Assembly (NCBI GenBank): GCA_023383015.1
Contig: JAHDXW010000019.1
Location: 1-64,000, forward strand
Length of the DNA stretch: 64,000 bases
Direction: 5' to 3'
Source: Paracoccaceae bacterium
GTDB taxonomy: Bacteria; Pseudomonadota; Alphaproteobacteria; Rhodobacterales; Rhodobacteraceae
Under the pieces are notes generated by a model. The model did not search any database and was not told the DNA's origin. It was given only the letters and a program-made list of their open reading frames with translations. The first letter of the stretch is position 1. Each line of letters begins with the position of its first letter. Below, in pieces: positions 82 through 25,272 of the stretch. The position numbers were made by a program, and so were the translations under genes.

Positions 82-158
82 GCGGTTGTAGCTCAGTCGG
101 TTAGAGTACCGGCCTGTCACGCCGGGGGTCGCGGGTTCGAGCCCCGTCAACCGCGCCA
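82..158 (+). tRNA. tRNA-Asp (GTC)
   Basis: This is a complete 77-base cloverleaf. The acceptor strand GCGGTTG pairs with CAACCGC at 148-154, followed by discriminator G and an encoded CCA. The anticodon stem CCGGC/GCCGG at 109-113 and 121-125 encloses a loop with anticodon GTC at 116-118. The T-loop TTCGAGC is standard. It decodes the Asp codons GAC and GAT. It is identical over the shared length to the truncated copy at 1-54, so the pair is probably one recent tandem duplication. Confidence 0.97.
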
Positions 159-403: not shown

Positions 404-1396
404 GTGAGAAGAGCCGAAACAGGGCTGGCGATGCGCCGCCCGGTTGCACCTTGCGCCGGTCCTTTGCGCCGGCTGGCCGCCGCCGCCATCCTCGCGGCGG
501 CAGCGGCCCTGCCGGCGACGGCCGACACCGTGCTCGAGGCCGTCTATCCCGCCCGCAGCGGCGGCGGCAGCGAGATCTGCGGCCCGACCGTCGAGACCGC
601 GTTCACCGTCGCGGGGGCAGGACCCGTGACCATCAGGGTGGAGTGGACCAGCCCCTGGTGGTTCCACCGCCGACGCTGGGCGCGCTACTCGGAATTCCTT
701 TTCTGGAACTGCGAGGGGCGCGGCTGTGTAGGCTATTCGGGCTATGCACCGAATCTCCAGGGCCTCGTCTGCTCGACGCGGGATCCCGATCCGCATGTGC
801 CGAACCTGCCCGCGGTGATCGAGTGGGTGTTCGAGCACACCCGGACCGAGCCTGCGACCCTCTCCACCGCGATCGCCCCGGTCTGCGACTGCCGCTGGAT
901 CGGCGACACCGAGCGCTGCGTCCAGACCGCCGAGCAGTTCCGCGTCACGGTCGATGCCGGTGCCGGCGTCGTGCTCACGCTCGACCGGCCCGGCAGCTAT
1001 CTGCCCGAACCGGTGCCGCCCGATCCCGCCGAGATCGTCGCAGCCGCCACCGTCGCCAACGGCGCCACGGTTCGGAACGGGCCGACGGCGGTCACCACCT
1101 TCACGCTCGACCGCGCCCTCTACCTGGCCCGGATCACCACCTACCACTGGAACGGCGGGCGCGGCGCGCCGGCCGGCACGATCACGCTGGTAGCGCCCGA
1201 CGGCAGCCTCCTCGGCCCCTGGCAGGCCGAGGGGCGGCCCGGTTCGGGCGCCCAGAACGTCAACTGGGTGGCCGAGCCGGGCATCCTCCTGCAGCCGGGA
1301 ACCTATGGCGTGATCGACTCCGACCCCGCCACCTGGTCGCAGAACGCCGGCAGCGGCGGGCGGGGTTTTGTCTGGGTCGAGGGCGTCTGGCGCTAG
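404..1396 (+). CDS. Secreted cysteine-rich protein with C-terminal HWN/WSQN domain, unknown function
   Basis: A 330-residue protein of unrecognised function. The first ~40 residues form a basic start plus an Ala/Leu-rich stretch ending in a plausible ALPATA signal-peptidase site, so export to the periplasm or beyond is likely. The middle part, about residues 42-210, contains seven cysteines (EIC, WNC, RGC, LVC, PVCDC, ERC), suggesting disulfide bonds. Residues ~217-330 form a second domain shared with the protein at 1886: both have NGPT, then TT.HWN.GRG, LQPG.Y and SWSQN/TWSQN ending in GF..VEG.W. The GTG at 404 was chosen because a GAGGGGGG Shine-Dalgarno stands seven bases upstream; an ATG at 431 would also keep the signal peptide. 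No enzyme motif was seen. Confidence 0.8.
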   Translation: MRRAETGLAMRRPVAPCAGPLRRLAAAAILAAAAALPATADTVLEAVYPARSGGGSEICGPTVETAFTVAGAGPVTIRVEWTSPWWFHRRRWARYSEFLFWNCEGRGCVGYSGYAPNLQGLVCSTRDPDPHVPNLPAVIEWVFEHTRTEPATLSTAIAPVCDCRWIGDTERCVQTAEQFRVTVDAGAGVVLTLDRPGSYLPEPVPPDPAEIVAAATVANGATVRNGPTAVTTFTLDRALYLARITTYHWNGGRGAPAGTITLVAPDGSLLGPWQAEGRPGSGAQNVNWVAEPGILLQPGTYGVIDSDPATWSQNAGSGGRGFVWVEGVWR

Positions 1397-1575
1397 GGCG
1401 GCCCCCGGACGGGGGACCGAGGAACGCCCTGCCCGAGGTCATCGCCGGCCCCGGGGGGCGTCGCCCGGCCGCGGGCGGCTTCGGGCGCGCGCGGACGCGT
1501 GCAGGGGGGGCCGTGGCCGCGCTGCGTCCGGGCAGGCCCGCTGAACGGCTCCGCGCGGCCGGTCAGGGTGGACGG

Positions 1576-1756
1576 GCGTGGAATGGGGTCGGCCGCGGGT
1601 CCACCGGGTCGGGCGCGGAGAACCTCATGCGTGGCCGCACCCGGCGTCGGGATCTCCGCCGGCACCTGCGGGGCGGTCGGGTCCGGTCCCCCCGCATGGT
1701 TGCGCAACGACGCGAGCGGCGGGGCCGGCCTCGAGCGGATCGAGGGGGTCTGGCGG
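1576..1756 (+). pseudogene. Relic of a third copy of the HWN/WSQN domain
   Basis: This stretch has no intact gene of its own but carries a recognisable C-terminal piece of the neighbouring secreted-protein family. From 1631 to 1753 the translation aligns without gaps over 41 residues to the end of the 404-1396 protein, with 19 identities by my count (VA.PG, GT, then N..SGG.G and EGVW). Just upstream the match continues in another frame (WNG.GRG at ~1579, then GSGA.N), and about two bases are missing near 1630, so there is a frameshift as well as an internal deletion. The reading frame runs open into the next gene, but the relic lacks a signal peptide. The rest of the 490-base gap 1397-1885 shows nothing else. 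Confidence 0.6.
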
Positions 1757-1885
1757 CCGGCCGGCGCCGGGCATGGCCACGCAGGACCGCGGTGTTGCGC
1801 GCACGGTGTCTTTTCCGGCGGGCCGGGATGCGGCACACTCCCCTTGCCGCGCAGGCGGCGCAATGGCAGCAGGGGGATCGGGGTC

Positions 1886-2410
1886 ATGACGGGACGATGG
1901 CTGGGCTGGTTCGTGGCGGCAGTCGCGGTGGCGGCCTCCGTCGCGCTGCCCGTGCCGGCGCAGGCGTCGGCGGACGGGCAGGGCAGGGCGGCAGGCGATG
2001 CCCGGCCCGTTCCCCACCGGCGCGTGGTGGCGCCGCCGCGGCCGACCCTGACGATCTTCGACACCACCAATCCTGCGCTGCCGGCAAACGGGCCGACCGA
2101 CTACGCGCTGTTCGACATCGACCGCCCTCTGCTTGTCACCCGGCTGACGACGATGCACTGGAACTTCGGCCGCGGCGCCTCGCCGGGGCTCGTCGGCCTT
2201 TACGGCAGCGACGGGGAATACTACGGGCCGTTCCTGTCGGAGGGGCTGCCCGGCCCGCAGGGCATCTCGGACGTCTACTGGTACAGCGAGCCCTACATCA
2301 TCCTCCAGCCCGGTCAGTATGTGGTGTTCGTGTCCGAGCCGGAGAGCTGGTCGCAGAACGACGCCAGCAGCGGCGTCGGCTTCGTGCGGATCGAGGGCGC
2401 CTGGTGGTGA
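1886..2410 (+). CDS. Secreted single-domain paralogue (HWN/WSQN domain), unknown function
   Basis: A 174-residue exported protein of unknown function. Residues 1-27 form a textbook signal peptide: basic MTGR, a hydrophobic V/A core, then PAQA. After a low-complexity linker, residues ~54-174 repeat the C-terminal domain of the protein at 404: NGPT, LTTMHWNFGRG, LYGSDG, IILQPGQY, ESWSQN, SGVGFV and EGAW. The Cys-rich N-terminal half of the larger paralogue is missing. The ATG at 1886 was preferred over an in-frame start at 1499 because only it gives a signal peptide, and GGGATCGGGG precedes it. The spacing of aromatic and Gly residues suggests a beta-sandwich; that is inference. Confidence 0.78.
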   Translation: MTGRWLGWFVAAVAVAASVALPVPAQASADGQGRAAGDARPVPHRRVVAPPRPTLTIFDTTNPALPANGPTDYALFDIDRPLLVTRLTTMHWNFGRGASPGLVGLYGSDGEYYGPFLSEGLPGPQGISDVYWYSEPYIILQPGQYVVFVSEPESWSQNDASSGVGFVRIEGAWW

Positions 2411-24204: not shown

Positions 24205-25272
24205 ATGCGACCGGAGGACTTCGATTTCGATCTGCCCGAAGCGCTGATCGCCACCCGCCCGGTGCGCCCGCGCAGCGCCGCCCGGCTGCTGGTGGCCCGG
24301 GGCGACCGGCTGGAGGACCGCCATGTGCGCGACCTGCCGCAGGTGCTGCGGCCGGGCGACCTGCTGGTCTTCAACGATACCCGTGTCCTGCCGGCCCGGC
24401 TGTCGGGGCTGCGGCGGCGGCCCTCGGGGCAGGCCGCGGTACCGACGCCGGTCGAGATAACCCTGTCCCGGCCCCTTCCCGGCGGCGGCTGGCAGGTGCT
24501 GGCACGGCCACTGCGCCGGCTGAGGCCGGGTGACCACCTCGCCTTCGGCGACGCCCTCTCCGCCCGGGTGACCGCGGTCGACGGCGGATTTGCCCGTCTC
24601 GACTTCGACCGCGACGGCCCGGCGTTCGAGGCCGCCCTCGCCGAGGTCGGGGCCATGCCGCTGCCGCCCTACATCGCCGGCCGCCGACCGCCCGATGCCG
24701 CCGACCGCGAGGACTACCAGACCGTCTTCGCCCGGCGCCCCGGCGCCGTGGCCGCGCCGACGGCGGCGCTGCATTTCGATGCCCCGCTCCTTGCCGCGCT
24801 GGAGGCGCGCGGCATCGGCCGGGCCGTGGTGACGCTGCATGTCGGCGCCGGCACCTTCCTGCCGGTCAAGGTCGATGACATCCGCCAGCACCGGATGCAT
24901 GCCGAATGGGGCGAGGTCACGGCCGCGGTCGCCACGGCGATCAACGCCGCAAGGGCCGCGGGCCGGCGGGTGATCCCCGTCGGCACCACGGCGCTGCGGC
25001 TGATCGAGACTGCCGCCGCGCACGACGGCCGCCTCGCCCCCTGGGCAGGGGACACCGACATCTTCATCCATCCCGGCTACCGCTTCCGGGCCACGGATGC
25101 GCTGATGACGAACTTCCACCTCCCGCGGTCGACGCTGATGATGCTCGTCGCCGCCCTGATGGGGCAGGAGCGGATCCGCCGCATCTACGCCCATGCGGTG
25201 GCGGCGGGGTACCGCTTCTTCTCCTACGGCGACGCCTCGCTCCTGATTCCGCCTGCCGCGGACGGGGCCTGA
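24205..25272 (+). CDS. queA: tRNA preQ1(34) S-adenosylmethionine ribosyltransferase-isomerase
   Basis: A 355-residue enzyme that transfers the ribosyl part of SAM to preQ1 in tRNA, giving epoxyqueuosine at position 34. Family blocks present are [80 protein letters not shown] and [19 protein letters not shown]. The length is normal. The ATG is five bases after the AsmA-like stop codon. tgt, its usual pathway neighbour, is not in this window. The MFS gene follows 118 bases downstream. Confidence 0.95.

Follow-up and report, generated by a model that had tools for sequence, protein, structure and literature searches.

A possible undescribed family of extracellular domains with a predicted jelly-roll fold, found in two exported proteins of a Paracoccaceae bacterium and in other bacteria and archaea

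What are the two exported proteins encoded near the start of a 64,000-nucleotide stretch of Paracoccaceae bacterium DNA (contig JAHDXW010000019.1, positions 1 to 64,000; hereafter the window), for which an earlier note proposed a common C-terminal domain unlike any described one? Both open reading frames were confirmed, and lie on the plus strand with all their parts given below. Protein 1 (404-1396) has 330 residues when read from GTG 404, which has AGAGGGGGG in front of it, and 321 residues when read from ATG 431; counted from the latter, GC at the three codon positions is 0.68/0.60/0.89. It comprises a signal sequence (431-523, ending ...LPATA), an N-terminal module (524-1024) and domain copy 1 (1025-1393), which matches the domain profile over positions 1-124 (E 2.7e-63, with the copy 1 row itself part of the profile). 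Protein 2 (1886-2410, 174 residues) contains, as the note had said of one of the pair, nothing but the domain after its export signal: a signal sequence (1886-1966, ending ...VPAQA), a short linker and domain copy 2 (2042-2407). Both signal sequences were recognized by a crude rule of our own, in protein 1 from a hydrophobic stretch, and both cleavage sites are our reading. ATG 1886 has AGGGGGAT upstream and a clear signal sequence after it, and protein 2 is best read from there because a longer listed ORF of 303 residues, starting at 1499, crosses a degenerate copy of the domain.

The two domain copies are 47% identical (E 1.1e-30 in a genome search with copy 2 as query). Chance or low-complexity similarity is excluded by an E-value of this order (1e-30) together with the coherence of the family described below. 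The spaced sequence blocks pointed out earlier are present in both copies; the final W of VEG.W turned out to be a feature of the window pair only (2 of 17 alignment rows).

The pair is real, but the family is larger than the two proteins originally seen. The genome search found a third intact copy in the same genome (C7:24326-24694; the search match covers 24344-24688 at 43% identity), which sits in a 351-residue ORF that also has the N-terminal module (24% identity). In addition, a partial copy lies between the two intact window genes (1568-1756, plus strand), matching positions 58-124 of a three-copy profile (E 2.5e-7). It is without the half containing HWN, and the W80 and Y93 positions are altered. 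Over 73 residues it shares 41% identity with copy 1 (E 2.5e-10), and over 60 nucleotides its DNA is 80% identical to gene 2 at the 3' end of that gene (E 2.6e-11); GC at codon position 2 is 0.76, versus 0.60 in gene 1. We read this remnant as a probable decaying tandem duplicate.

The N-terminal module of protein 1 was described in the earlier note as a seven-cysteine module. The seven cysteines past the signal sequence are real (59, 103, 108, 123, 161, 163 and 172; an eighth, 17, is within the leader), but the C7 paralogue retains only C59 and C161 of them. It matched no Pfam family, and its best match among PDB sequences had an E-value of 0.2. Among 101 genomes it was present only in that of the window, being absent from the 100 relatives. 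Copies of the module were seen at window 524-1024 and at L003:970-1482, both in the same genome. A structure model of full-length protein 1 was unreliable (mean pLDDT 50.5).

We then compared the domain with known families, and use the word undescribed relative to Pfam, NCBIfam, PHROGs and PDB sequences only. In Pfam-A, the best E-value for 59 domain members was 0.0029, to the Topo VI all-beta model, which was matched by two members; no strong match to a characterised Pfam family, named beforehand as refutation, was found. The corresponding hit of the full-length L016 protein to PF20768 (Topo VI all-beta; E 0.017, 29 residues, 15.4 bits, below the cut-off of 23.6) was taken as chance, and a DUF5320 hit on the 303-residue ORF of gene 2 (E 0.4) lies outside the shared domain. 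The best NCBIfam E-value for the 59 members was 0.091, the best PHROGs E-value for 17 members was 0.045, and PDB sequence searches with the domain gave nothing below E 0.26. Scanning the window proteins and the 17-member set against Pfam-A and NCBIfam likewise gave nothing credible, in agreement with the original failure to recognize the domain. Neither the F5/8 type C (PF00754) nor the DUF4082 (PF13313) profile matched any of the 59 domains at E<=0.1, and a genome search for genuine DUF4082 members matched none. PF00754 matches were found in 3 of the 50 genomes of an archaeal family (Methanothrix-type); compared with the domain, PF00754 members gave hhalign probabilities of 0.4% and 0.1%, in an alignment of three archaeal rows only. 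No description of the domain was found in open-licence PMC papers. Relative to the libraries searched, this family of extracellular domains is undescribed; its structural kind is a known one.

A viral or phage origin was also considered. One query against 50,697 phage records gave no domain match. Of four scans of viral contigs, two gave no match, and the other two matched L032 and L118, one each. We read L032 as host DNA beside a Mu-like prophage, and the L118 match, of about 20 residues, was left uncounted. On L032, an IMG/VR contig, the domain (78-911) is at the left end, adjoined by ORFs that we take to be repressor-like and transposase-like.

Structure prediction and fold comparison, as proposed in the earlier note, yielded a confident all-beta model from which no family can be assigned. 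The AlphaFold2 model, made for copy 2 with 16 other rows (pLDDT 96.9, pTM 0.89), has short helical turns in the loops. Foldseek found no PDB match at E<=0.001; the top matches were thrombocorticin (7f9j, E 1.5e-3, TMq 0.50) and nucleoplasmin (E 2.0e-3), with the CBM6 structure 2cdp also among the matches (E 2.1e-2), and the best E-value in a library of viral structures was 2.2e-3. The VIA-align list contains capsid jelly-rolls, nucleoplasmins, discoidin, CBM35, CBM32, CBM36, a fucose-binding module and a collagen-binding domain. The highest Z was 7.9 (PBCV-1 capsid), and models that have no clear relative commonly reach values below 8. The best rows for factor VIII C2 and neuropilin b1 scored 6.2-6.3 (105-106 aligned residues, rmsd 3.3-3.5), a GH26-CBM35 chain 6.3, and CBM32, CBM36 and the fucose-binding module 5.8-6.0. 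The predicted architecture is that of a jelly-roll-type beta-sandwich, and the likeness to known structures is only at the level general to this architecture.

Three groups of known modules invite comparison. F5/8 type C (discoidin, PF00754) and CBM32-like modules are also extracellular, mobile jelly-roll beta-sandwiches of similar size, with a ligand site at one loop end. The fold match to discoidin (Z about 5.8-6.3, 105-108 residues, rmsd 3.3-3.7) is at a level shared by unrelated sandwiches, and, as stated, the PF00754 profile matches no domain member. The CBM6, CBM35 and CBM36 families are jelly-roll modules as well (Z 6.3 for the CBM35 chain, 5.8 for the CBM36 chain); in contrast to them, the 59 members have no Pfam match and the 32 proteins scanned whole have no glycoside hydrolase partner. 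Fucose lectins of the thrombocorticin/PA-IIL (LecB) type are likewise small and beta-rich and include the top Foldseek match, but identity is 14% and rmsd 8.1; PMC9700728 describes a two-calcium sugar site for such lectins, and the thrombocorticin matched here, 7f9j, is a Ca-dependent fucose lectin.

The domain is not confined to the genome of the window. Two short patterns were run against 84,980 species genomes, and 13 loci were confirmed from 125 candidate stretches, a floor because the patterns are strict. They include alphaproteobacteria (Roseovarius, Sediminimonas, one Rhodobacteraceae bacterium and one Phyllobacteriaceae bacterium), one 'Proteobacteria bacterium', three Chloroflexi, one actinobacterium, and four archaea (Methanothrix, Methanosaeta, Methanotrichaceae and a Euryarchaeota genome placed in the same family group). 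Two copies also stand side by side on plasmid unnamed2 of Picosynechococcus sp. PCC 7003 (L031:4028-5465), largely near-identical in the domain and different in their N-termini. Profile searches of the archaeal family around a Methanosaeta sp. genome found one to five matches in 31 of 50 genomes. Outside the archaea, the distribution is patchy: the domain was found in 7 of 121 genomes of the family of a Chloroflexi genome, in 2 of 60 of a Roseovarius genus and in 2 of 398 across the phylum of the window (the centre genome included in each case), and, with a single-sequence query, in 1 of 101 relatives of the window, namely the window genome itself. Of 289 genomes searched in the class, 10 matched, strongly only that of the window. 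The nine weak matches (17-19 bits, E 0.001-0.01) were counted as chance; one of them, L019, is presumably an aminotransferase ORF, and eight span profile positions of about 10-104, like L019, in frames of 404-530 residues.

In a 62-domain tree built on 123 columns, in which many forks are unresolved, copy 1 and a Chloroflexi sequence form a group (99/79), which copy 2 joins (98/89). The C7 copy is separate, though within the same ten-row group, and the three intact copies of the genome do not form a single clade. Horizontal transfer of the domain is likely.

Outside the window, the domain is carried by 59 ORFs (identical domains collapsed), of which 55 are complete; with the two window proteins, 57 complete ORFs were available. 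A signal-peptide-like start was found by our crude rule in 49 of the 57, compared to 196 of 1140 shuffled upstream segments, which bears out the designation as extracellular. The regions outside the domain fall into 24 similarity clusters, and by our own cut-offs the domain occupies the N-terminal end of 19 ORFs, an internal position in another 19 and the C-terminal end of 13, and makes up nearly the whole of the remaining 6. L093 has two tandem copies in one protein. Four Rhodobacter-group proteins (L011, L012, L013 and L110; 959-1499 residues) have long, uncharacterised and seemingly repetitive parts around the domain, and the three of them that were scanned (L011, L013 and L110) gave no Pfam match above cut-off.

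Partner domains are diverse. In whole-protein Pfam scans of 32 proteins (30 of the 55 outside ORFs and the two window ORFs), ten had a partner above cut-off: DUF6273 (L016), Cu_amine_oxidN1 (L017), 3keto-disac_hyd (L096), CarboxypepD_reg and PKD (L097), HEAT repeats with Peptidase_S8, the subtilase catalytic domain (the archaeal L101 and L102), S-layer (L107, E 2.1e-28), Laminin_G_3 (L109), ZU5 (L112, barely over cut-off) and FecR (L078). A signal-like start was seen in L101, and none was found in L102. In L107 (1012-4398, Methanothrix-family genome), the domain adjoins a C-terminal S-layer protein segment. Going by its sequence contexts, the domain is a mobile extracellular module well beyond the window pair. 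Archaeal sheath proteins offer a parallel: as described in PMC11576556, they are multi-copy Methanotrichales surface proteins with varied extra domains, and have Ig-like and carbohydrate-binding caps.

What does such a module do? We put at about even odds (roughly 0.5) the reading that this mobile extracellular jelly-roll domain is a ligand-binding attachment module, most likely glycan-binding. Ligand binding is preferred because export signals and modularity are combined with a fold class to which many lectins and carbohydrate-binding modules belong. The domain proteins would be exported, most likely by the Sec route judging from their signal sequences; near-invariant loop residues (H-W-N...S...W..N: H39, W40, N41, S98, W103 and N106) would shape a binding pocket, and the conserved ligand bound there would most likely be a cell-surface or extracellular-matrix glycan; and the domain would tether its partner (protease, S-layer segment, laminin-G or other) to the glycan matrix. 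Against the reading, fold scores stay below Z 8, and capsid and nucleoplasmin jelly-rolls score equal to or above the binding modules. Many carbohydrate-binding modules accompany glycoside hydrolase domains, and none of the 32 scanned proteins has one.

Residue conservation was scored over 62 sequences. H39, W80, Y93, G49, G91 and G113 are each found in 62/62 domains, S98 in 61/62, W40 and W103 in 59/62, N41, N106 and P18 in 57/62 and N16 in 51/62. The conservation ranking is led by W80, H39, W103, W40, Y93, column 64, S98 and N106. Four long loops (8-21, 39-49, 70-78 and 98-114 in copy 2 numbering) are expected together at one end of the modelled sandwich, since each follows an odd-numbered strand (60-65/67-69 and 86-88/91-97 being merged). 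These loops hold 14 of the top 20 conserved columns, compared to 51 of 119 columns overall (hypergeometric P 0.007), and their mean conservation is 0.553 versus 0.483 (Mann-Whitney P 0.016). The support is only moderate, because the loop mean is matched or exceeded in 11 of 118 circular shifts.

The same figures serve the chief rival, a structural spacer or cap in which conserved H, W, N and G residues serve for packing, in core and loops, and so stiffen a beta module without a specific ligand. The loop bias is unconvincing against the circular shifts; of the six columns ranked highest for conservation, the first, fifth and sixth (W80, Y93 and 64) are in strands; Gly, Trp and Tyr account for many of the invariant positions; and the partners include generic spacers, PKD for one. 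However, H39, N41, S98 and N106 are polar, predicted to be in loops, and kept across archaea and bacteria at a median pairwise identity of 42%. A domain standing alone after a signal sequence, as in protein 2 and the other ORFs of that kind, also fits a spacer poorly. We regard this explanation as doubtful, if a serious one.

Alternatively, the domain could serve protein-protein assembly or sorting, by oligomerising or by docking onto another envelope protein. Nucleoplasmin, the PBCV-1 capsid and other phage or virus jelly-rolls are among its best structural neighbours, it is terminal in many ORFs, and the archaeal S-layer fusion would suit this role. However, its position varies more freely than that of a sorting tag, and no recurring partner gene was noticed among the neighbours, which were viewed unsystematically; we consider this explanation unlikely. 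It is very improbable that the domain is a small secreted enzyme whose active site consists of the conserved histidine and asparagines. Invariant H39, near-invariant N41, S98 and N106, and enzymes such as 9kr1 and 7zgn in the structural list would suit this reading, but no acidic residue is invariant among the 62 sequences and the enzyme rows have no better Z than binding modules.

Copy 2 is a divergent member, with V97 for D, F64 for W and M38 for Y of the family majority, and has the longest end branch of the tree (1.18). Its ligand may be altered, or the copy may be relaxing.

A broader proposal is tentative: an unnamed lectin-like family with one conserved ligand site, horizontally shared among Methanothrix-type archaea, Chloroflexi, Alphaproteobacteria and others, may attach proteases, S-layer proteins and other proteins of the cell surface to glycans as an interchangeable module. 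The Methanothrix family comprises acetate-using, methane-making archaea central to anaerobic digestion. If the proposal holds, a lectin-like domain could mediate cell-cell or cell-matrix adhesion in methanogenic granules, and the domain is a small, testable candidate for surface adhesion in this family. It links bacterial and archaeal surface proteins and merits a Pfam entry; naming it would provide annotation for dozens of surface proteins, including the subtilases and the S-layer fusion of the Methanothrix family.

The neighbourhood of the window genes gave no hint of the ligand. No signs of an operon were seen at the locus, and a promoter and terminator scan around the genes was uninformative. 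Downstream ORFs presumably encode an M20-type peptidase, 5-aminolevulinate synthase, a RodZ-like protein and IspG. Upstream of protein 1, a complete tRNA-Asp(GTC) gene is found at window 82-158, and the near-identical 3' part of another at the window edge (1-54) indicates a tandem tRNA-Asp(GTC) pair.
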